Source of the DNA: Roseateles sp. DAIF2
Lineage (GTDB): Bacteria; Pseudomonadota; Gammaproteobacteria; Burkholderiales; Burkholderiaceae_C
Length of the DNA stretch: 64,000 bases
Assembly (NCBI RefSeq): GCF_015624425.1
Contig: NZ_CP049919.1
Location: forward strand, 2,666,001 to 2,730,000
Direction: 5' to 3'
Shown here: positions 33,801-44,071 of the stretch, in pieces
Position numbering within the stretch: the stretch's first letter is position 1
How the letters are laid out: each line of letters opens with the position of its first letter
Position numbers and translations under genes: made by a program
The notes under the pieces: model-generated
The model's database searches: none
Seen by the model: only the letters and a program-made list of their open reading frames with translations
Told to the model about the DNA's origin: nothing

Positions 33801-34410
33801 CCTCAGCGGCCATCTGTTCGACCAGAGCGGCGAGGAGGTGCGCCGCATGGTCAAGCGCCGCATCGCTGAGCTGCAGGACAGCCGTGAGCCGGTGATGGTG
33901 GCCGGCATCGTCAGCGACATGCGGGTGATCAACGGCAACCGCGGCCGGGTCGCGATCTTCAAGCTCGACGACAAGAGCGATGCGATCGAGGCAGTGGCCA
34001 ACGAGGAGCTGCTGAACGCCAACAAGGAACAGCTGGCCGAGGACGAGCTGATCATCGTCTCGGGCAAGGTGCAGAACGATCGCTTCTCCGGCGGCCTGCG
34101 CATGAACATCCAGCAGATCTGGAGCCTGACGGCGGCGCGCGCGCGCTTCGGCCGCTATGTCTACCTGCCGGTCAAGAGCAGCTTGCCGCCGCTGGCCGAG
34201 GTCGTGAAGACCTGGCCGGCGCGCAAGGTGGAAAGCGAGCAGGGCACGGTCAGCCAGGGCCTGAAGGTGCAGACCCACCATTTCCTGGCCCAGGGCCAGG
34301 CCAGGCTGGATCTCGGCGAGGACAGCCGTTTCTGGCCCTGCGACGAGGCGCTGCAACGCTTTGCCGAGCTGAGCCCGGAGCCCGCACGCATCGTTTACGA
34401 GGTCGAGTAA
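30892..34410 (+). CDS. dnaE: DNA polymerase III subunit alpha
   Basis: The 1172-residue replicative polymerase. N-terminal PHP domain (about 1-270, FVHLRTHTEFSVVDGTLR), palm/fingers with catalytic aspartates in MPDFDIDFCQGNRD (about 403 and 405) and VKFDFLGL (third Asp near 577), the finger motif NALYRPGPMDL, tandem HhH, an OB fold (about 1000-1090) and a C-terminal tau-binding part. Length matches the E. coli enzyme (1160). The start is ATG 30892 (MAFVHLRTHTEFS); the frame is open upstream without support. Confidence 0.97.
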   Translation: MAFVHLRTHTEFSVVDGTLRTDDAAKAAAKDGQVALGLTDLANLFGGVKFYNACRKSGVKPILGADCWLEPEASDKSSTRLLLLVQNIQGYLNLSELLSRAWIQNVVRNQACVKWEWLEELGEGLICLSGAQFGGLGQALLMGDQAKARDWAQRLAAIFPGRFYIELQRAGLPGQEALVRASVPLAAELQLPVVATHPIQFLAEEDYDAHEARVCIADGETLANPKRIKRFLPGQYFRSQADMEALFADIPSAIANTVEIAKRCSLTLVLGKPQLPNFPTPLLEDGSKMPMADYFRKLSFEGLEDRLKLLYPDPAKREAQRPRYVERLEFELETIIKMGFPGYFLIVGDFIKWAKMNGCPVGPGRGSGAGSLVAYVLLITDLDPLQYNLLFERFLNPERVSMPDFDIDFCQGNRDRVIEYVKDKYGRPAVSQIATFGTMAAKGALRDIGRVLGMGFGHVDSIAKLVPAPPGKTVTLAKLPPDFDPDKAKMVYARHESPEIEEREREDEEVAGLLGLAARVEGTVRSIGMHAGGVLIAPGKITDFCPQYQQPGSTSAVSQYDKDDVEAIGLVKFDFLGLATLTILELAKDFIVARYPEQKDFAFEKIPLDDKKTYKLFSDGLTESVFQFESSGMQKMLKDAKPSRLEDLIALNALYRPGPMDLIPTFVARKHGKEVVEYPHPLTEPVLAETYGIMVYQEQVMQTAQVLGGYSLGGADMLRRAMGKKKAEEMAMHREMFRKGAAEKGIDQDKADEVFDLMEKFAGYGFNKSHAAAYSLLAYHTAWLKVHFTAEFFAANMTIESDDTDKLKVLLNDAKLFGIEFEPPNVNLGVHRFEPLGPKRVNYSLGAVKGTGVGAIQAIVAARNEGGPFKSFFDFCVRVDRKQVNKRVVEALIKAGAFDALEPDRARLLASVALGYTYADNLQANANQGGLFDFDDSTHGSSTAEPPLVEVAPWSIKEKLSLEKTAIGYYLSGHLFDQSGEEVRRMVKRRIAELQDSREPVMVAGIVSDMRVINGNRGRVAIFKLDDKSDAIEAVANEELLNANKEQLAEDELIIVSGKVQNDRFSGGLRMNIQQIWSLTAARARFGRYVYLPVKSSLPPLAEVVKTWPARKVESEQGTVSQGLKVQTHHFLAQGQARLDLGEDSRFWPCDEALQRFAELSPEPARIVYEVE

Positions 34411-34547
34411 GGGGCGTGACGAGGGCGCGTGTCCCCTGCTCCCGTCACATGAAGCGAGGGGTTGCATCGGACCGGGCTTCGCAGGATGCTTCGCGGCTCA
34501 GGGACTGGTGGCCGCATCAATCGCAGGCGTGCACACAGAAGGCAGGT

Positions 34548-34567
34548 CGGGAACCCCGGGGTTCCCG
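34548..34567. promoter_or_regulatory. 20-bp perfect palindrome upstream of the Crp/Fnr gene
   Basis: CGGGAACCCCGGGGTTCCCG is perfectly self-complementary and lies 39 bases before the regulator's start codon. Position and symmetry suit an operator for a dimeric regulator, possibly the regulator itself. It does not resemble the TTGAT-N4-ATCAA Fnr site. Confidence 0.4.
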
Positions 34568-34606
34568 TGGCGTCTTGCGGGCGGCCGTAGCGGGCAAGGA
34601 GATGCC

Positions 34607-35476
34607 ATGGACCAGTCTCGCTGGCGCGCCGGTGCAGGCCGTGCCGATCTTGGGCCACATCACACCGATCCCGGGCGCCATGCCTGCCTCTCGGACCTGC
34701 TGCGCCTGATGGATGCGGCCGAGGAGGCCGATGCCGGCAGCGATGGCTATCCGGTCCGCGGTCTACCGGTGTCCGCCGGCGCCGTGCTGTTTCGCGAGGG
34801 CAGTCCGGCCCAGTCCATCAGCTTCGTGACGCGCGGGGCCTTCAAGGTCTACCGCACCGCCGAGGACGGCTACGAGCAGGTGCTGAGCTTTGTCGGCCGG
34901 GCCGAGGTCCTGGGCTTCGACGGCCTGTGCCGTCGCCAGCATTCCAGCACAGCGGTAGCTCTGGAGGACGCCGCGGTCTTCACGCTGAGCAATGCCGAGA
35001 TCCTGGGGCTGGAGACCCGGGTGCCGGCGCTGAACCGCATGCTGCACCGGGCCGCCAGCCGGCAGCTGCAAGGCTGCGGCGATGTGGTCGAGCTGATGGC
35101 GGCGGTGGCGGCCGAGGTGCGCCTGGCGCGTTTCCTGGTGCAGCTGTCCGATCGCATGCAGGCCTGCGGGCAGTCACCGCTGCGGCTGTTGCTGCGCATG
35201 TGCCGGCGCGACATCGCCAGCTATCTGGGCCTGGCCCATGAAACGATCAGCCGCTCCTTCAGCGCGCTGGTCGACTGGGGCTATCTGCAGGTCGACAACC
35301 GGGACATCGACATCCTCGACCTGGAGCGTTTGCGGGAGCTGGCGCGCAACACGCGCGGTCTGGTCGGCCTAAGCGTGCGGCGCCATGCGGATCCGGCCAT
35401 CGCGGCGCGCACACCGGTCCGCTCCAACCCGGCGATCCGCCGGTCGCGGCGCGGCGATGCCCTCGATCTCACTTGA
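34607..35476 (+). CDS. Crp/Fnr-family transcriptional regulator
   Basis: A 289-residue regulator with a cyclic-nucleotide-binding-like domain (about 45-155, FREGSPAQSISFVTRGAFKV), a dimer helix and a winged HTH (about 195-260, RRDIASYLGLAHETISRSFS then ALVDWGYL). It keeps the ETISR recognition helix of Fnr but I do not see the N-terminal cysteine cluster needed for an iron-sulfur sensor. The C-terminal 25 residues are an unusual basic tail. The start is ATG 34607, with AAGGAG 5 bases upstream; an in-frame ATG at 34508 lacks a ribosome site. The next gene is a sigma-54 activator, so this may be part of the same regulatory block. Confidence 0.88.
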   Translation: MDQSRWRAGAGRADLGPHHTDPGRHACLSDLLRLMDAAEEADAGSDGYPVRGLPVSAGAVLFREGSPAQSISFVTRGAFKVYRTAEDGYEQVLSFVGRAEVLGFDGLCRRQHSSTAVALEDAAVFTLSNAEILGLETRVPALNRMLHRAASRQLQGCGDVVELMAAVAAEVRLARFLVQLSDRMQACGQSPLRLLLRMCRRDIASYLGLAHETISRSFSALVDWGYLQVDNRDIDILDLERLRELARNTRGLVGLSVRRHADPAIAARTPVRSNPAIRRSRRGDALDLT

Positions 35477-35566
35477 TTTAGGGACATGCAAACCCTGCCC
35501 GCTTGCGTTCACTCAATGGCCAAACCCGGTTGAAAGGCATGCTGCCGGCCTGAGGTCGGCAAGAAG

Positions 35567-36910
<1,344 letters not shown>

Positions 36911-37004
36911 CGGTACCTCCGGATCTTCAAGCCGCAATATGTGTCATGGGCGAAACACCCGTCGCAAAGCCTTGCAACTGGCCGGGTCGTCCCGCCAAGT
37001 GACT

Positions 37005-37020
37005 GAATCCTGAGGGATTC
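37005..37020. promoter_or_regulatory. Candidate activator-binding palindrome 1
   Basis: GAATCC-TGAG-GGATTC, perfect 6-bp arms, about 170 bases upstream of the -24/-12 promoter, a usual distance for enhancer sites of sigma-54 activators. Confidence 0.35.
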
Positions 37021-37075
37021 CGAAGCGGTTGCTCGGGTCTCTCGGCCGGCCCCCGACGCGGCGGCCCAGCGCGGC

Positions 37076-37091
37076 GTCTCAGGCTTGAGAC
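37076..37091. promoter_or_regulatory. Candidate activator-binding palindrome 2
   Basis: GTCTCA-GGCT-TGAGAC, perfect 6-bp arms with the same 4-base spacing as the palindrome at 37005, about 96 bases upstream of the -24/-12 promoter. The two sequences differ, so at most one may be the real enhancer site. Confidence 0.35.
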
Positions 37092-37186
37092 AACTCGAAC
37101 CGGTCCGACGCGCATGGCGCAGCGCCGAGTCCCGGAGTCAGCAGAATTCTTCTTATGAATCAATGGTTTGGATTCGGAATCTGGCA

Positions 37187-37202
37187 TGGCATCAATCCTG
37201 CA
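37187..37202 (+). promoter_or_regulatory. Sigma-54 (-24/-12) promoter of the secreted-protein operon
   Basis: TGGCATCAATCCTGCA matches the TGGCACG-N4-TTGCW consensus with GG and GC twelve bases apart, as required; mismatches are only at less conserved positions. The transcript would start near 37213, giving a 60-base leader before the ATG at 37273. The adjacent upstream gene encodes a sigma-54 activator. The rest of 36911-37272 contains two palindromes and no gene. Confidence 0.72.
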
Positions 37203-37272
37203 TAGAGCTTGCCGGTTGGCCCTCGTGCCAATTTGCGCAGGACTCACTCACTCAACAAGCAAGGAGCGATCT

Positions 37273-39012
37273 ATGACAACGATGAGAAAGACGGTCATCG
37301 CCGCAGCGATCACGCTGGCCTTTGGCGGTGCGAGTACGGTGTGGGCCAATCCGGTCAACAACAACAATGCTGACACGGCCGACTCGGTCACCCAGTCGGC
37401 GGCGGCGACCTCGACCCAGACGAACAACACCGGGCCGACGGCGAACGAGTATTCCAAGGCGGTGCAGGACAACAGCACCAGCACGGTCAACAAGACCAAC
37501 AACAAGACGGTCAACAAGACCAGCACCAGCACGAAGACGGTCAGCAAGACCGACACCCGCACGACCAGCATCGACAAGTCGGGCGACAACCGCGAGAACT
37601 CCGGGCGCGCCGCGGCGGATGGTTCCGGCACGGCGGCCGCCAACAACGGCGCGACCAGCACCGCCAATCTGACCAACTCCTTCAACCACAGCAAGGCCGT
37701 CGCCAGCAGCAAGCTGGAAGGCTCGGTCTCCAATGTGACCGTGTATGGCATCGGCAATACCGCATCGAATGGCGGTAGTGTCAGCGGCGGCGCCGGTGGC
37801 AAGGGCGGCGCGGGCTATGGCGGCGATGGCCGCGGCGGTACCGGGGCCGGCGGTACTGGTGGCTCGGGCGGCTCGGCGGGCGATGGCGGCTACGGCGGCA
37901 ATGGCGGCAGCGGCGGCGATGCCAACAACGGCAGTGCCTCGGCCGGCAATGCCCGCAATGGCAGCGCGATGAACGGCTCGGCACGCGCCGGCAGCGGTGG
38001 CGATGGCGGCTCGGCCCGCGATGCGAGCGGCGGCCGCGGCGGCAGCGCCGGCAGCATCGGCGGTTCGGCCGTCTCAGGCAATCTGCAGGACACCGGCCAT
38101 GCGAACTCGGACAGCAAGGCCTCGGGCGGCAGTGCGTTGTCGGGCAGCAGGTCCTCGGGCGGTTCGACCGATGCCTACAACAAGTCCAGCGGCGGCAGCA
38201 GCGGCGTGGCCGGCATGGCCAAGGGCGGCTGGAGCGCCGCGGGCAGCCTGGCCGGTGCCGGCAGCGGCGGCGGCGGCGGCGGTGGAAGCGCCGGCAGCGG
38301 CGGCAATGGCACCGAAGGCGGCGGCGGCGGCGATGGCGGCGCGACCGGTGCCGGCACTGGCGGCGCGGGCGGCGCGGGGACCTCGGGCGCGGCGACCGCC
38401 TCCGGCGGCGCGGGCACGAACAGCGGCACCAGCAGCGGCGGCGCCGCCACCGGCAGCGCTACGGCCAGCGGCAGCACCAGCGCCAGCACCTCGTCCAGCA
38501 CCGGCGGCGCGGGCAGCAGCGGCGCGGCGACCTCGACCAGCGGCAGCAATACCGGCACATCCTCCTCGTCCGGTGGTGCCGCGACCTCGACCGCGGGCAG
38601 CGGCGCGCAGGCCACCAACAACGGCGGCGGCGGCGGCTCGGGCGGCTCGGCCACCAATGGCAGCGCCACCAATGGCGGCGCCTCCACCTCGGCCTCGAAT
38701 GGCAGCGCCACCGCCGGCAACGGCGCCACGGGCGCGGTCGGTGGCAGCGGTGGTCAGGGCGGCCAGGGCGGTGACGGCGCGGGCGGCCAGGGCGGTGCCG
38801 GCGCGGGCGGCGTCGGCAACGGTGCGACCGGCGGCGCTGGCGGCAATGGCGGCACGCTGGCGGTCAGCGCCGGGGTGTTCAACATGTCCAACGCGATGAC
38901 CAGCGTCGGCATGTCGGCGGCCGGCATCATGGTGGCGGCACAGAACAGCGGCATGGCGGCCCTGGTGCAGCAAAGCGTCAACGTGCAGGCCAACCTGAAC
39001 GTCGGCAAGTAG
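37273..39012 (+). CDS. Secreted glycine-rich low-complexity protein (candidate fibre subunit)
   Basis: A 579-residue exported protein. Signal peptide MTTMRKTVIAAAITLAFGG (cleavage near 27), then a Thr/Asn/Ser/Lys-rich segment (about 28-165, e.g. TVNKTNNKTVNKTSTSTKTV), a long Gly/Ser/Ala-rich segment (about 166-533) with many GG, GS and GN pairs and no cysteine, and a hydrophobic C-terminal 46 residues ending QQSVNVQANLNVGK. No enzyme domain is visible. A clear AAGGAG lies 6 bases before the ATG, and a sigma-54 promoter precedes it. With a C39 peptidase, exported partners and a FapF-like barrel next door, it is a candidate extracellular amyloid or matrix fibre subunit. This is inference; it is not FapC-like in sequence. 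Confidence 0.75.
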   Translation: MTTMRKTVIAAAITLAFGGASTVWANPVNNNNADTADSVTQSAAATSTQTNNTGPTANEYSKAVQDNSTSTVNKTNNKTVNKTSTSTKTVSKTDTRTTSIDKSGDNRENSGRAAADGSGTAAANNGATSTANLTNSFNHSKAVASSKLEGSVSNVTVYGIGNTASNGGSVSGGAGGKGGAGYGGDGRGGTGAGGTGGSGGSAGDGGYGGNGGSGGDANNGSASAGNARNGSAMNGSARAGSGGDGGSARDASGGRGGSAGSIGGSAVSGNLQDTGHANSDSKASGGSALSGSRSSGGSTDAYNKSSGGSSGVAGMAKGGWSAAGSLAGAGSGGGGGGGSAGSGGNGTEGGGGGDGGATGAGTGGAGGAGTSGAATASGGAGTNSGTSSGGAATGSATASGSTSASTSSSTGGAGSSGAATSTSGSNTGTSSSSGGAATSTAGSGAQATNNGGGGGSGGSATNGSATNGGASTSASNGSATAGNGATGAVGGSGGQGGQGGDGAGGQGGAGAGGVGNGATGGAGGNGGTLAVSAGVFNMSNAMTSVGMSAAGIMVAAQNSGMAALVQQSVNVQANLNVGK

Positions 39013-39090
39013 CAGCGCAAGCGGCTGGAAGCGCGCCATGCCGGGGCCGTTGTCCCGGCATGGCGCCACCTACGAGAAAGCAGGTGTGCC

Positions 39091-39468
39091 ATGGGCAATC
39101 ACCACAGGTTTGCGGTACTGCCGCTGTTTGCTTTGCTGGGTGGTCTGGCGGGTCAGGGGCTGGTGCTGGCGCAGGAGGTCCTGCAGACCCCCGCGGTCCC
39201 CAGCCCGGCGCTTGCCAACAACCCGCTGCAGGCGCGGCCGCTGGATGCGCAGCGGCTGGGCGGGCAGCGCGGCGGCACCGACACCTTCAACGACATGAGC
39301 CTGCGCGGCGTGGTGGCCGACAACCGCGCGGTCAATGTCTCGACCGGCGGCAACCTGGTCAGCCAGGGAGCCCTGTCCGGCATGTCGGGCGTGCCGATGC
39401 TGGTGCAGAACACCGGCAACAACGTGCTGATCCAGAGCGCGACCATCATCAATGTTCAGCTCAAGTAG
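39091..39468 (+). CDS. Small exported protein of the fap-like cluster
   Basis: A 125-residue protein with a signal peptide (about 1-28, LPLFALLGGLAGQGLVLAQ). No family is recognised. The mature part is rich in Asn, Val and Gly, with beta-strand-forming stretches (LRGVVADNRAVNVSTGGNLV) and a C-terminal motif LVQNTGNNVLIQSATIINVQ that resembles the ends of the proteins encoded at 37273 and 40193. Size and place suggest a minor or nucleator subunit. It follows the glycine-rich gene by 78 bases and precedes the C39 peptidase gene by 16. Confidence 0.7.
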   Translation: MGNHHRFAVLPLFALLGGLAGQGLVLAQEVLQTPAVPSPALANNPLQARPLDAQRLGGQRGGTDTFNDMSLRGVVADNRAVNVSTGGNLVSQGALSGMSGVPMLVQNTGNNVLIQSATIINVQLK

Positions 39469-39484
39469 CCAGCGGGGCCGCAGG

Positions 39485-40171
39485 ATGACGATGAAGCAAG
39501 CGAACGCGCTGTGCTGCCTGATGTTTCTGGCGGGCGGTGCGTGGGCCGGTACCGTGGAGCCGCCGCTGCAGATCGGTGGCGCCTTCTCGGTGCCGACCAC
39601 CAGCCTGCGCGAGCTGCGCTTTCGCTCGACGATCCGTCAGCAGTTCGACTTCAGCTGCGGCTCGGCGGCGATCGCCACCCTGCTGGCCCATCACTACCGG
39701 CACGGCGTCAACGAACAGACGGTGTTCGAGGGTATGTACCGGCATGGCGACCAGGAGAAGATCAAGCGCGAGGGTTTCTCGCTGCTCGACATGAAACGCT
39801 ATCTGCAGACGCTCGGCTTCGAGGCCAACGGCTTCGAGGCGACGCTGGAGATGCTGGGCCGCGCCAACATCCCCGCGATCGCGCTGATCCAGGAGCAGGG
39901 CTATCACCACTTCATCGTCATCAAGGGCCTGCGCCAGGGCCGGGTGCTGATCGGTGATCCGTCCGGCGGCCTGCGCGCGATGAGCCAGGCCAGCTTCCAG
40001 CAGATCTGGACCAACCAGATCCTGTTCGTGATCAACAACCAGCAGGACCGGGCGCGCTTCAACCTGGATGCCGAATGGAAGATCGTGCCCCGGGCACCGA
40101 CCGACCTGGCCATCAATCGCAACGGCCTGGGCTCGATGCTGCTGCCCAAGCTGGGCCCCGGGGATTTCTGA
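39485..40171 (+). CDS. C39-family peptidase, exported (FapD-like)
   Basis: A 228-residue protein with a signal peptide (MTMKQANALCCLMFLAGGAW, cleavage near 21) and a papain-like C39 fold: C58 in FDFSCGSAAIATLL, His near 142 in GYHHFIVIKG and D158 in LIGDPSGG, so the catalytic triad appears complete. C39 peptidases cut at double-Gly leaders in bacteriocin export; the closest functional parallel here is FapD of Pseudomonas amyloid operons, a periplasmic C39-like protease needed for export. It lies between exported low-complexity proteins. The start is ATG 39485; another ATG lies two codons later. Confidence 0.88.
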   Translation: MTMKQANALCCLMFLAGGAWAGTVEPPLQIGGAFSVPTTSLRELRFRSTIRQQFDFSCGSAAIATLLAHHYRHGVNEQTVFEGMYRHGDQEKIKREGFSLLDMKRYLQTLGFEANGFEATLEMLGRANIPAIALIQEQGYHHFIVIKGLRQGRVLIGDPSGGLRAMSQASFQQIWTNQILFVINNQQDRARFNLDAEWKIVPRAPTDLAINRNGLGSMLLPKLGPGDF

Positions 40172-40192
40172 GTCGTGAAGGCCGGACGCATC

Positions 40193-41563
40193 ATGAACAC
40201 CTCCACCCGACGTCTGGCCTGCCTGGTTTCGCTGCTGGGCGGTGGCTGCATCGTGCCGCTGGGCCTGGCGCCACCGCTGTACAAGCCGGTGGGCGAGTTG
40301 TCGCGGCTGCCCCTGGCCGAGCTGCCCCGTATGCCCGAGCCTGCCGCAGCGCAGCCGGCCGAAGAGCCGGTTGTTGAAGCCGAGGCGCCTGCGGCCATCG
40401 ATCCGATCCCGATCCCCGCAGCCCCTCCAGTGGCCGCGCGGGATGAAGATTTGCAACGCCGGCTGGTGCTGGCGATTCAGCGCATGGCGCCGGAGGAAAC
40501 CGTCGAACGCGAGCCCGCGGCGCCGATGCCGGTTCGCGAGAAGACGCTGTCCGGCCAGGTCTCGCACATCCTGACGCGTAGCGATCCGGCGCGCCCGAAC
40601 ACCACCGATGTCGAGGCCGAGGGCCTGCCGGTGGCCGAGGAGCTCGAGGCAGTGGGCATGAATCCACGGCGGATCGCCGCGATGCTCGGCTTCGATCCGT
40701 CCGCGGAACGACCCAGGCCGGCGCCCCCTGAGGAGCCGGAAGCGCAGGAAAGACGCAAGGTTTCGCTGGCGGGCTCGATGCATCCGGTTGCACCACCGGC
40801 CGCATGGGACTTGAATCCGGCACCCGCTCCCGAGCTTCAAGCGGGTCCGCCAGCGATCCCCGACGCGCCGGAACCCCGGCACGCCAGCCTGCCGCCAGCA
40901 CCGGCCGATCCGGTGCTGGCGCGCCTGCGCGATGGCGTGCCGAGGCTCGACCCGACCGTTCCCGCGCCGCCGGCCGTCAATCGCCTGTTGGCGGCGCCTC
41001 TGCCGGGCCATGGCTCGACGCCGCCGATTGCCCAGGTGGCGCTGCCGCTGGCCTGCGGCAGGGAAGGCGAGGAGCTGCCATCACGCAAGCCGGAGGAAGC
41101 GCCTTGCCGCCCGACGGCCAACGAGGCGCCGCGCCCGCCCGGCAGTCCGCGTCAGGCGCTGGGCGAGACCCGGCTGGCGCTGAACGGCCGTTCGCTCGAC
41201 GCGATCCGTGGCGGCTTCAGCGGACCCAACGGCCTGCAGGTCTCCTTCGGCATCGAGCGCAGCGTCTATATCAACGGCGCCCTGGTCACGACCACCAGCC
41301 TGAACCTGAATGGCCAGGGCCAAGCCACCGGCGCTGCCGGCCAGAGCCTGGCCCTGATCCAGAGCGGCGCGGGCAACAGCGTGGCGCCACAGCTGCTGTT
41401 GCCCTCGGCGATGCCGGGCACGGTGATTCAGAACAGCTTGAACGACCAGCGCATCCAGGCGCTGACGGTCATCAATGCAACCGTCAACAGCATGCAGATG
41501 CTGCGCTCGCTGAACCTGCAGACGACGATTCGCGAAGGCGTGACCGACTCGCTGCGCCGCTAG
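40193..41563 (+). CDS. Proline-rich exported protein of the fap-like cluster
   Basis: A 456-residue protein with an N-terminal hydrophobic segment (LACLVSLLGGGCIVPLGLAP); a Cys follows it but the lipobox is not canonical. Residues about 30-310 are Pro/Ala/Glu-rich and probably unfolded; the last 150 residues look folded (LNGRSLDAIRGGFSGPNGLQ, VSFGIERSVYINGALVTTTS) and end with PGTVIQNSLNDQRIQALTVI and a basic tail. The end resembles the two smaller exported proteins of the operon. No family is recognised; a FapE-like accessory or periplasm-spanning role is possible. An alternative GTG start at 40175 adds six residues. Confidence 0.68.
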   Translation: MNTSTRRLACLVSLLGGGCIVPLGLAPPLYKPVGELSRLPLAELPRMPEPAAAQPAEEPVVEAEAPAAIDPIPIPAAPPVAARDEDLQRRLVLAIQRMAPEETVEREPAAPMPVREKTLSGQVSHILTRSDPARPNTTDVEAEGLPVAEELEAVGMNPRRIAAMLGFDPSAERPRPAPPEEPEAQERRKVSLAGSMHPVAPPAAWDLNPAPAPELQAGPPAIPDAPEPRHASLPPAPADPVLARLRDGVPRLDPTVPAPPAVNRLLAAPLPGHGSTPPIAQVALPLACGREGEELPSRKPEEAPCRPTANEAPRPPGSPRQALGETRLALNGRSLDAIRGGFSGPNGLQVSFGIERSVYINGALVTTTSLNLNGQGQATGAAGQSLALIQSGAGNSVAPQLLLPSAMPGTVIQNSLNDQRIQALTVINATVNSMQMLRSLNLQTTIREGVTDSLRR

Positions 41564-41588
41564 CGCCGCACAGCCGCAGCGTGGGCGG

Positions 41589-42865
41589 CTAGAGATTCAT
41601 CGGCATGCGCAGGGTCAGGGTGATGTCGGGCGTGTCCCGGGTCATGCCGGCGCCCAGGGTGAAGTTCAGCGTCTTCTTGGGGCCTAGGCGATAGGCATAG
41701 CCGAGCAGCAGGGTGCCGAGCTGCACGCGCACCGCGTCGGCCGCGGTCGTGCCGTTCTGCTTTGTCTTGCCGACCGAGCTGTGGTCGTAGCCGATGCTGA
41801 AGGACGAGCGTTCGTTCAGCGCCAGGCCCATGCCGAAATTGAAGCCCAGCACGCCGCCGGGCTGGATGCTGCCGAGCTCCTGCGGCCCGTCATTGGTCTT
41901 GCGCACGACGTTGTCGCGCTTGAAGCTGTGCAGATAGCTGATCGAGCCGAACAGCACCGCCGGGTCCGAGGGATAGAGCACGGTCAGGCTGGGCTGCAGG
42001 CCGTAGAAGCCCGAGCCGGTCGGCAGCTGCGCCTGCACGCCGTCGCGCAGGCCGTTGACGCTGTTGTTGGTCTCGACCTCGAAGGGGTCGCGGCCGGTGC
42101 GCGTCTTCAGGCGCAGGCCGGCCACATAGAAGGGCTTGTCGACCCCGCCGTCGTTGAGCTGATAGCGCATGCCCAGCTCGATGTCGCCGATGCCATGGCC
42201 GCTGGAATCGAAGGCGACATTGGTGGCGAAGCCCGTTTCCTTCAGGATCTCGCGGCCGATGCTGCTGTCGGAGCGCCGCACATAGGGCACGCGGGCCTCG
42301 ATCTCGAGGCGGCTGCTGAGCCCGTAGCGCGCCGCCAGGGTGCCGGTGAAGGTGTTGCGCTTGACCTCGCGCACATCGATCACGCCGATCAGGATGGCGG
42401 GGATGATGGTGTAGCCCACCAGCGCGACGCGGTTGCTGGACGAGTAGGAGTACTGGAAGGAGGGCTCCAGCACCAGGCTGCGGTGCGGGGTCAGGATGCC
42501 GGACTGATCGAAGATCTGGGCCACATTGGCCGGCTGCGGGCTGTTGTCGCGCAGCGGTTCCACCTCGGCGGCGCGGGCGCCGGTATCGGCGGCCGGCTCG
42601 GCGGCGGCCACTACCTGCGTTCCGGTGCCGCGGCGCTCTGCCAGCGCTTCCAGGCCCAGCGCACGCAGGGCCTCCGACATGCGGGCTTCCTCATTGGCGA
42701 TCGAGCGCTTCAGCGCATCCAGCCGCTGGGCCTGTTCGGCAAACTGGCGCCGCAGGGTCTCCAGGCGCTCGGACGAGAGCTCGGGGGGGCGGCCCGTAGC
42801 GGCAGGGACAGGGTGAGCAGGCCGGCCATCGACAGGCATAGCGGCAGCAGCGGAGCTGGGCTCAT
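41589..42865 (-). CDS. Outer-membrane barrel protein, FapF-like, with frameshifted start
   Basis: The main frame encodes a coiled coil (SSERLETLRRQFAEQAQRLD onward, about 60 residues), a linker and a barrel-type domain ending TLRMPMNL. Coiled coil plus barrel matches FapF, the trimeric amyloid-exporting channel of Pseudomonas. This frame has no signal peptide. A perfect one (MSPAPLLPLCLSMAGLLTLS from ATG 42865, with GAGGAG upstream) lies in another frame, and the two would join if the 7-G tract at 42783-42789 had 8 bases. So the gene is frameshifted: phase variation, a null allele or a sequencing error. Automated starts near 42953 have no support. It converges on the operon at 37273-41563. 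Confidence 0.72.
42783..42789. repeat. Seven-G homopolymer at the frameshift of the barrel gene
   Basis: A run of seven G (plus strand; poly-C in the coding strand). One more base would fuse the signal-peptide frame to the coiled-coil frame, giving ...LRAAPPELSSERLETL. Confidence 0.8.
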
Positions 42866-43087
42866 CGGGGTCTCCTCGCGCAGCGCGGGCTGCATGGGAT
42901 GGCATGGGCATCGGCCGGATTCCCAACGCTAAAGGGTGGCGCGCGGCGGCCATTGCGTACGGTCAACGCCGCCCTGTTTCATTGCCCCGTGAAGCGCATT
43001 TGTCACTTGCTTCGGTGACAGCTGCTGGGCCGCGCGGCCCATCCGGCGGTTCATGCAAATCTCAGGCCGCATCGGGATGATCCGGGC

Positions 43088-44029
43088 ATGCCGAGCAAAC
43101 TTGTCGTCGTCACGCCCGCCGGGCGCGAGCATTACCTGGAGCTGCTGGCCCACCATCTGCTGAGCCAGCCCGGGCTGCACGAATGGCAGTTGTGGGACAA
43201 CTGCCGCCGGGAGAGCGACCGGGTCTATCTGCGCCGCCTGGCCCAGCGCGACCCGCGCATCCGTGTCGTCTCCATCCCGGCCTTCGAGGGCTGCCATCGC
43301 AGCAGCAACCGCTTCTACCGCCGCTGCGACGACCCGCGCGCCTTCTACATCAAGATCGACGACGATGTGGTCTACCTGGAACCCGGCGCGCTCGAGCGGC
43401 TGCGCCAGACCGCGCGGGCGCAGCGCCAGGCGGCCCAGCTGCTGGGGCGGCCGGTGCCGCTGTGGTGGTCGGCCCTGGTGGTCAACAACGCGATCTGCAG
43501 CTGGCTGCTGAAGCACCACGCCAAGCTCGAGCTGCCGGAGCGGCTGAGCTGCCAGGCCTCGGACCCGCTCGGTGGAGCCTGCCCGGCGTTCGCCCTGCGT
43601 CTGCACGAGCGTTTCCTGGCCCAGGTGGAGCAGGGCCGGCTGGAGCCGTTCCGGGTGCCGGATTTCCCGGTCTCGCTGTCGCGCCTGTCGATCAACTGCC
43701 TGGGCTTCTGGGGTCAGGACGTGCTCAGGCTGGGCCAGCGCTTCTGTCCCGACGATGCCGACGAGGAGGAATGGCTGTCGGCGGTGTTGCCCTCGCTGAC
43801 CGGGCGCCATGGCTGCGTGGTCGGCGATGTGCTGGTGGCGCATTTCGCCTGCGAGGCGCAGGAGCAGGCCCTGCTGCGCTCCGGTCTGCTGGAGCGCTAC
43901 TACGCGCTGGCCGGGCGGCCGGTGCCGGACTATCCGCTGCAGGGGCTGAGCCTGCCGCAGCGCCTGCGGCGCTGGTTACGGGCGAGGCAGCGGCGCCACA
44001 AAGCGGGTTTGGTGGCCGGCATCGGGTGA
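43088..44029 (+). CDS. Hypothetical protein with glycosyltransferase-type DDD motif
   Basis: A 313-residue soluble protein. The segment YIKIDDDVVYLEPGALERL (about 97-115) resembles the DXD metal site of GT-A glycosyltransferases, and the N-terminus SKLVVVTPAGREHYLELLAH suits a Rossmann-like start. HHLLSQPGLHEWQLWDNCRR resembles the donor-sugar part of capsule or LPS transferases in Comamonadaceae. I cannot name the family. A GTG/ATG start at 43088 follows a 130-base intergenic region; the next gene begins 42 bases after the stop. Confidence 0.65.
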   Translation: MPSKLVVVTPAGREHYLELLAHHLLSQPGLHEWQLWDNCRRESDRVYLRRLAQRDPRIRVVSIPAFEGCHRSSNRFYRRCDDPRAFYIKIDDDVVYLEPGALERLRQTARAQRQAAQLLGRPVPLWWSALVVNNAICSWLLKHHAKLELPERLSCQASDPLGGACPAFALRLHERFLAQVEQGRLEPFRVPDFPVSLSRLSINCLGFWGQDVLRLGQRFCPDDADEEEWLSAVLPSLTGRHGCVVGDVLVAHFACEAQEQALLRSGLLERYYALAGRPVPDYPLQGLSLPQRLRRWLRARQRRHKAGLVAGIG

Positions 44030-44071
44030 GATCGGATGATCGGGGGCTGTATCTGGACGTAAGCTGGCGGG

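Follow-up and report, generated by a model that had tools for sequence, protein, structure and literature searches.

A probable variant of the Fap secretion and fibre-assembly system with a glycine-rich main subunit in Roseateles sp. DAIF2

A conserved gene cluster and its occurrence

The window analysed here is a 64,000-nucleotide stretch of the Roseateles sp. DAIF2 genome (contig NZ_CP049919.1, positions 2,666,001 to 2,730,000), and it contains a cluster of five genes, adjoined by a gene for a transcriptional activator, that likely works like the Fap system of Pseudomonas (fapABCDEF). A preliminary description made from the sequence alone had proposed such a resemblance; the five genes and the activator are all present on the strands that it gave, and the cluster is confirmed as real. 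The genes, with the names that we use for them and with coordinates in the window, are as follows:

37273-39012, forward strand: SUB, an exported main subunit of 579 aa rich in Gly, Ala, Ser, Thr, and Asn
39091-39468, forward strand: SMALL, an exported protein of 125 aa in which a leader motif is followed by one predicted Fap-type repeat
39452-40171, forward strand: the C39 peptidase, exported and FapD/FilB-like (a later ATG lies at 39485)
40175-41563, forward strand: PRO, an exported protein with a variable Pro-rich N-terminal part and a FapE-like C-terminal domain (a later ATG lies at 40193)
41589-42953, reverse strand: the barrel, a FapF-like outer-membrane barrel with an N-terminal long helix, convergent to the other genes
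35567-36910, forward strand: the activator, a VpsR/BerB-like sigma-54 activator with a VpsR domain, an AAA+ domain carrying GAFTGA, and a Fis-type helix-turn-helix (HTH)

A hydrophobic segment lies near the start of each of SUB, SMALL, C39, and PRO, and Pfam search of SUB, SMALL, and PRO yields no family at E ≤ 1. The limits previously set for the cluster, 37187 and 42865, hold in part: a -24/-12-like element starts at the former, and the latter is the ATG of a signal peptide that lies outside the frame of the barrel.

A C39 profile scan of genomes confirmed at least 560 stretches, from which the best 80 loci, all recovered through C39, were kept. Gene models (profile hidden Markov models, HMMs) were built from four seeds and SUB was recognized by a tail pattern; open reading frames (ORFs) start at the first start codon, and some N-termini are therefore too long, and the rows in all counts are related to one another. 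These 80 loci come mostly from Burkholderiales, with some from Dechloromonas, Azoarcus, Pseudoxanthomonas, and Lysobacter, and they contain SUB in 76 cases, SMALL, C39, and PRO in 79 each, the barrel in 69, and the activator in 43. C39 and PRO are uncounted in one locus in which C39 runs off the end (L044), and SMALL in one in which C39 starts at base 91 (L068). Three of the four loci lacking SUB begin less than 600 bases from C39, the fourth being L043, and each of the 11 lacking the barrel is shorter than 20 kb. Forty-nine loci exceed 20 kb; SUB is found in 48 of them, SMALL, PRO, and the barrel in all 49, and an activator scoring above 450 bits in 29. Because SMALL, C39, and PRO lie on one strand in this order in all 78 loci that hold all three, a chance association is excluded. 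The genes co-occur in many genomes, mainly of Burkholderiales, a point that the preliminary description had left to a survey.

A separate search with SMALL in 200 genomes of the order matched 17 genomes, including that of the window and two other seed genomes, and a C39 match adjoins in 17/17; in one of them (G428) SMALL and C39 lie on broken contigs and there is a second SMALL match without C39. C39 matched at 1e-30 in 27 of the 200 genomes, and the ten of these in which SMALL is missing match C39 less strongly (1e-30 to 1e-48). The cluster also occurs on plasmids: 18 plasmid records match C39 by tblastn, and profiles find SUB, SMALL, C39, PRO, and the barrel on the megaplasmid of Cupriavidus metallidurans CH34, and SMALL, C39, PRO, and the barrel on alphaproteobacterial plasmids of Polymorphobacter and Croceicoccus. 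On the latter two, an Asn/Ser-rich repetitive protein occupies the place of SUB (L173 3335-4621 and L174 3519-4526), and neither the SUB profile nor the bridge profile described below matches it at 1e-3.

In the source genome, searches with C39 and FapF each give a single match, namely the respective gene of the cluster. The cluster is absent from two congeneric genomes (L167 and L168), in which C39 matches reach just 1e-3 to 1e-4 and the distance from dnaE to a patatin gene is 165 and 254 bases, compared with about 9.7 kb (34381-44056) in the window. Two neighboring genes considered as further members, a CRP/FNR regulator (34508) and a glycosyltransferase (43088), were rejected, as neither has a match in 102 other loci at 1e-8 or at E 1. 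In two annotated records the genes of the cluster are labelled "hypothetical protein," "C39 family peptidase," or "transporter."

Kinship with Fap through the barrel, the peptidase, and a shared repeat

We compared three sets of loci, namely the cluster group, canonical-type Fap loci (L138-L146, L154, and L155), and intermediates (L147-L153). The closest tie to Fap is the barrel, which matches the NCBIfam FapF model at 1.4e-48 and 166 bits (equivalog cut-off 700), with Pfam giving only sub-threshold barrel families. FapF is its sole solved relative by sequence at E ≤ 0.01 in the Protein Data Bank (PDB; best 3.4e-33). In an AlphaFold model with a mean pLDDT of 79, a 48-residue helix (61-108) precedes the barrel and a short helix lies at 183-189, and when this model was searched with Foldseek, ranks 1-18 were all FapF chains, with TM scores by target of up to 0.85. 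The long helix gives one further feature:

42630-42773, reverse strand: predicted coiled coil, the N-terminal long helix of the barrel

Among 39 rows, Pro311 and Thr312 of the barrel are nearly invariant and Gly313 is invariant, which places them at the PTG motif. From sequence and model together, the barrel would be a FapF-type outer-membrane channel with a periplasmic coiled coil, as had been suspected.

The peptidase has a C39 domain by Pfam (8e-24), and an alignment of six relatives shows no variation at its Cys69, His153, and Asp169, so that the triad reported in the preliminary description is intact. It matches the NCBIfam FapD model at 4e-44 and 150 bits, bearing out the proposed kinship, yet stays under the curated cut-off of 330; indeed, none of the proteins of the window passes a curated Fap cut-off in NCBIfam. 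An unrooted C39 tree of 45 rows, in which 27 of the 83 C39 proteins of the group were sampled, places the 11 canonical FapD rows on one side of a branch with 100/100 support and the window's peptidase on the other. The cluster group and the intermediates lie together opposite the canonical set with no clean separation between the two; with one change in 10% of bootstrap trees, the tree does not set the group apart from the intermediates as a single clade. The sequences thus point to an exported C39 peptidase that falls outside the canonical FapD clade.

For the subunits, the link to Fap runs through the intermediates. The NCBIfam FapB, FapC, and FapE models work on other loci that we compared (e.g., FapC scores above its curated cut-off in L145 and L139). 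In subunits of two intermediates (L148 and L149), three or four repeats conforming to N.I...F....GI..[VA]QQN.G.N..MQQ..[AS]V follow one another in tandem, and a canonical FapB profile from three seeds matches these four-repeat subunits at 3e-9 and 3e-6 (L148) and 2e-4 (L149), with NCBIfam FapB also matching one of them at 2e-4. Subunits of L150-L153 are mostly Asn/Ser/Asp-rich and have one such repeat at the end. At E < 1e-3, a bridge profile built from these single repeats recovers 79 SUBs out of 80 (best 8e-15) and all 83 SMALLs (best 2e-10), and no reversed sequence does better than 0.25; the tandem-repeat profile alone matches SMALL at 3e-8 and SUB at 0.003 (reversed best 0.074). In profile-profile comparisons the bridge reaches 97% with SUB, 97% with SMALL, 79% with the canonical repeat, and 71% with FapB, and SMALL reaches 31% with FapB. 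By this chain through the intermediates, and without a direct match, SUB and SMALL are each predicted to have one Fap-type repeat, which in SUB corresponds to the following module:

38869-38997, forward strand: C-terminal conserved module of SUB, one diverged Fap-type repeat by bridge HMM and profile-profile comparison

The preliminary description had seen no FapB/FapC-type repeats in the main subunit; this stands for direct comparison, which is blank (direct homology of SUB to FapC was not detectable, with a profile comparison of 0.4%), but not for the C-terminus, and calling the subunit unrelated was too strong. The sequences of SUB and SMALL do not have the usual three repeats of FapC/FapB subunits.

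The rest of SUB is variable. Across 72 SUBs of 305-1105 aa (from first start codons), a conserved end of about 45 residues follows a variable body with 31% Gly and 18% Ala; as the SUB set was picked by the tail pattern, the presence of this end is partly by construction. Gly recurs at period 3 in the body (mean z 3.3, with 51% of SUBs above 3). A polyglycine-II fold, which this period would suit, is conceivable, but AlphaFold gives nothing confident. Protein search with SUB, limited by low complexity, gave 3 matches among 8000 scored candidates. Residues 124-168 of the window's SUB form a second conserved stretch ahead of the Gly-rich body.

PRO lies at the gene place of FapE and shares with it an "L..[MIL]RG.[FY]" motif followed by "FG[IV]." A FapE profile matches 55 of 83 PROs at E ≤ 10, three of them below 1e-3 (best 5e-5; reversed PRO best 0.081). 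The C-terminal domain of PRO resembles SMALL at 95% in profile-profile comparison.

A leader motif and upstream control elements

The double-glycine leaders of known C39 peptidases have hydrophobic residues at -12, -7, and -4 ahead of GG. Two stretches of the cluster resemble them:

41180-41215, forward strand: double-glycine leader motif of PRO, LNGRSLDAIRGG, with a predicted C39 cut before F348
39241-39276, forward strand: double-glycine leader-like motif of SMALL, LDAQRLGGQRGG, with a predicted C39 cut after it and Gln at -4

The conserved domain of PRO starts at RGG. The PRO leader was located in 81 of 83 proteins (L091 and L096 escaped) by a pattern that fixed the central G and a downstream motif, leaving the leader positions free. 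RGG is present in 81/81, and a hydrophobic residue, with Ala, Tyr, and Trp counted as such, is found at -7 in 81/81, at -12 in 81/81, and at -4 in 68/81. All three positions are hydrophobic in 68/81 PROs compared with 48/466 background GG sites, taken from the proteins that these loci encode as C39, barrel, and activator; with the stricter set of Leu, Ile, Val, Met, and Phe the counts are 48/81 and 6/466, and among 54 non-redundant PROs they are 49 with the loose set and 37 with the strict one. In SMALL (82 of 83 readable), GG is found in 77, Arg at -3 in 82, and a hydrophobic residue at -7 in 81, at -12 in 80, and at -4 in 47. The part of PRO ahead of the predicted cut has 39-682 residues, and the kept part has a median of 125 (from first start codons). 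Most PROs, including that of the window, have GG at -2/-1 with hydrophobic -4, -7, and -12, a pattern that fits known leader recognition by C39.

A similar stretch is found in the 11 canonical FapEs, with hydrophobic residues at -4 in 11, -7 in 11, and -12 in ten, although -4 and -7 belonged to the pattern by which the canonical FapEs were located; it ends in RGR in six, RGK in four, and RGA in one. The FapE stretch of L140, LSDEELGGLRGR, meets the double-glycine consensus save for the last residue. Passages of the 2017 FapF paper call the target of FapD unclear, note that its active-site Cys is required for secretion, describe GG and GA motifs in FapE but no canonical C39 sequences in Fap proteins, and report that FapE alone shows no N-terminal peptides, over about 70 residues. 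Because of the leader consensus and these observations on FapE and FapD, we propose PRO/FapE, and in this cluster also SMALL, as candidate substrates of FapD-type proteases, for which the leader pattern nominates a cut site. We found neither this variant of Fap nor the FapD target in print among the open-licence papers searched.

Two elements upstream of SUB may be involved in its expression:

37187-37202, forward strand: -24/-12 (sigma-54) promoter-like element TGGCATCAATCCTGCA, 70 bases before the SUB start, score 12.5
37076-37091, without strand: perfect dyad GTCTCA-N4-TGAGAC, a candidate binding site of the activator

Upstream of SUB, 71 of 84 loci, the window among them, have a recognizable SUB start and were used, with first-order Markov resampled regions as control. 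A -24/-12-like element scoring at least 13 is present in 47/71 regions compared with 4.5% of resampled ones, and in relatives such elements sit 44 to 117 bases before the SUB start; the site in the window is supported because like elements occupy like places in the relatives. The dyad GTCNCA-N4-TGNGAC, a pattern generalized from the very loci on which it was counted, is exact in 21/71 (resampled 0.0000) and has at most one mismatch in 36/71 (resampled 1.3%); in the 6.0-Mb source genome it has three sites, of which that at 37076 alone is fully palindromic. The element and the dyad suggest sigma-54 control. The source genome has two rpoN (sigma-54) genes (G000:C1 5618202 and 3330281).

The activator matches Pfam VpsR (9e-13), Sigma54_activat (6e-70), and HTH_8 (7e-6), which upholds the earlier view of a VpsR-like activator next to the cluster, and GAFTGA is read in its translation, so that it is predicted to have an AAA+ sigma-54 interaction domain. 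Its general architecture is like that of BerB of Burkholderia cenocepacia, which keeps GAFTGA (in passages of PMC5552954), and of VpsR of Vibrio cholerae. VpsR, however, is without GAFTGA (in passages of PMC3162934), and BerB is described without an N-terminal sensor domain, whereas the activator of the cluster matches the VpsR domain; by that description it is set apart. Passages of PMC5552954 describe BerB as RpoN-dependent and c-di-GMP-responsive in its action on the gene of a matrix regulator, and by analogy control of biofilm by the activator would be reasonable. A VpsR-type activator (352-612 bits) is also found within the stretch in 9/11 canonical-type and 5/7 intermediate loci, the canonical-type ones being L138-L145 and L154. 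Among nine canonical loci, -24/-12-like sites reach 13.5 or more in two (L139 and L144), and the dyad upstream of canonical Fap genes has one case with one mismatch (L154) and is unsupported there.

A proposed mechanism and its alternatives

Several features are common to the cluster and Pseudomonas Fap: a FapF-like barrel with a coiled-coil-like helix, an exported C39 protease followed by a FapE-like protein, repeat-bearing exported subunits, and a VpsR-type activator near. The cluster differs from Fap in that its main subunit combines one recognized repeat with a Gly-rich body where Fap subunits typically have three repeats, in the leader ending (RGG in PRO and SMALL, RG[RK] in 10/11 canonical FapEs), in the barrel gene, whose strand and position (ahead of the rest of the cluster or behind it) vary, and in a peptidase outside the canonical FapD rows. 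Because two defining features, the FapD clade and FapB/FapC subunits, were tested and are absent, the cluster is not a member of canonical Fap; the kinship of barrel and peptidase and the co-occurrence of the genes bear out its earlier placement as a diverged relative, and it is apparently an uncharted variant of the Fap kind beside canonical Fap. Passages of PMC6173800 extend co-located fapD/fapF homologs to five further phyla and Fap to additional genera, and part of the cluster group may be within the supplement of that paper.

The Fil system of Acinetobacter ("putative pilus") is almost as close by its peptidase, as C39 reaches 145 bits with NCBIfam FilB, near the 150 with FapD. These 145 bits stand against a cut-off of 475, however, and the 77 bits of the barrel with FilC against 630, so that by the curated cut-offs of FilB and FilC the sequences do not place the cluster in Fil. 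The double-glycine leader peptidases of peptide exporters (ComA, LahT, and PCAT1) share the C39 family and the leader logic, but the C39 of the cluster is stand-alone and exported, with a signal-like segment and no ABC transporter in the gene, and its leader lies inside Sec-type proteins; moreover, -3 in PRO is Arg (81/81), whereas LahT substrates almost invariably have Ala there.

Taken together, the cluster probably encodes a Fap-type system for secretion and fibre assembly that stands as a variant next to canonical Fap; the sequence evidence for this comprises the kinship of barrel and peptidase, the linkage, the repeat traced via intermediates, the leader, and the promoter-like element and dyad in relatives. 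We infer from it a transcription unit, cleavage, secretion, a fibre of amyloid nature, and control by c-di-GMP, as follows. The VpsR/BerB-like activator would bind the dyad and, with sigma-54, fire SUB-SMALL-C39-PRO, and all products would pass through Sec. The periplasmic C39 would then recognize, in PRO and SMALL, a double-glycine leader (RGG preceded by hydrophobic -12, -7, and often -4) and remove what precedes the leader end, which in PRO would be the variable Pro-rich region. SUB, processed SMALL, and the C-terminal domain of PRO would exit through the FapF-like barrel, gathered by its coiled coil. Outside, SMALL with its one repeat would serve as a FapB-like minor subunit or nucleator, and the single repeats of SUB and SMALL would stack to form a fibre or coat, with the very long Gly-rich arms of SUB exposed as brushes.

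A number of observations weigh against this proposal. The NCBIfam FapB, FapC, and FapE models are silent on SUB, SMALL, and PRO at E ≤ 1, and in profile-profile comparison the C-terminus of SUB gives 0.9%, 0.6%, and 0.4% with canonical repeats, FapB, and FapC, about the level of reversed controls, for which reason the repeat claim rests on the intermediates; bridge against FapC gives 0.6%. A typical FapC has three repeats, according to passages of PMC3792158, and SUB and SMALL have one. PRO and FapE compare weakly (27%, against 0.1% for the reversed control), and SMALL scores about as well as PRO with the FapE profile (best 2e-4). AlphaFold yields no confident structure of SUB (pLDDT 40). The leader is not hydrophobic at -4 in 13/81 PROs and 35/82 SMALLs, including that of the window with its Gln. 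An activator scoring above 450 bits is lacking in 20 of the 49 full loci, and the -24/-12 score of 12.5 in the window is unremarkable, 22% of resampled regions reaching 12. Finally, the barrel frame as assembled has no in-frame signal peptide.

Some of these observations would suit the same export machine serving a different product, with SUB as a Gly-rich silk- or mucin-like surface coat or adhesin, its repeat a barrel-targeting tag, and no amyloid. SUB has one recognized repeat at its very C-terminus (in a set picked by its tail), and the remainder varies within lengths of 305-1105 aa with Gly at period 3 and no predicted ordered fold. We regard this as possible although the less probable account, given that SMALL carries the repeat too, that the C-terminal domain of PRO resembles SMALL, and that the tandem repeats of L148 and L149 suit a structural module better than a tag alone.

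It is also conceivable, though unlikely, that the C39 protein is a chaperone, as inactive C39-like domains are in some type I systems, or a cutter of the barrel linker, and not of PRO and SMALL. Its triad is intact, however, and the leader motif is kept in PRO and less fully in SMALL. Cleavage of FapF is discussed by the authors of the FapF structure, but the passages cited above have the Pseudomonas FapD cysteine as needed and FapE alone without N-terminal peptides.

The frame of the barrel raises the further alternative of a relic, broken by a frameshift in the source strain, in which the cluster would no longer work. Across 42783-42865 on the reverse strand, the signal peptide and the barrel lie in different frames, which may represent a phase-variable switch, a sequencing indel, or a break, and the two frames are separated by the following tract:

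42783-42789, reverse strand: 7-base C run between the signal-peptide frame (ATG 42865) and the barrel frame

The signal peptide starting at ATG 42865 is a good one, an N-terminal hydrophobic segment above threshold is present in 66 of 72 barrels, the window's included in the 72, and those of L029, L033, and L052 score below that of the window. In the assembled genome, the barrel gene may be in an off state or contain an indel introduced by sequencing. A relic, with which the absence of the cluster from the two congeneric genomes would agree, is improbable: the remaining genes have open frames, the dyad is a perfect one, and the frame of the barrel stays open over 454 codons with similarity to relatives over the barrel part. 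The 7-base homopolymer could also be a sequencing error or a phase-variable tract.

A broader proposal is about as likely as not: FapD-type proteases would be periplasmic double-glycine leader peptidases acting on FapE/PRO and SMALL, and the matrix of a large group of Fap relatives, found chiefly in Burkholderiales, would consist of silk-like fibre proteins that have a single repeat and a body rich in Gly or in Asn/Ser/Asp, often under a VpsR/BerB-type sigma-54 switch. The cluster adds a common matrix-type system that is nameless in the two annotated records examined, and it illustrates how a repeat amyloid may grade into a silk-like fibre of low complexity. The question of the FapD target raised in passages of the 2017 FapF paper becomes directly testable via the leader pattern, which canonical FapE shows with RG[RK]. 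Small exported-looking ORFs with "VILWDE" were also seen in Fap-type loci (L139 5863-6198 and L148 7880-8272), and that of L139 carries a leader-like motif as well, IADEELSSMRGT.

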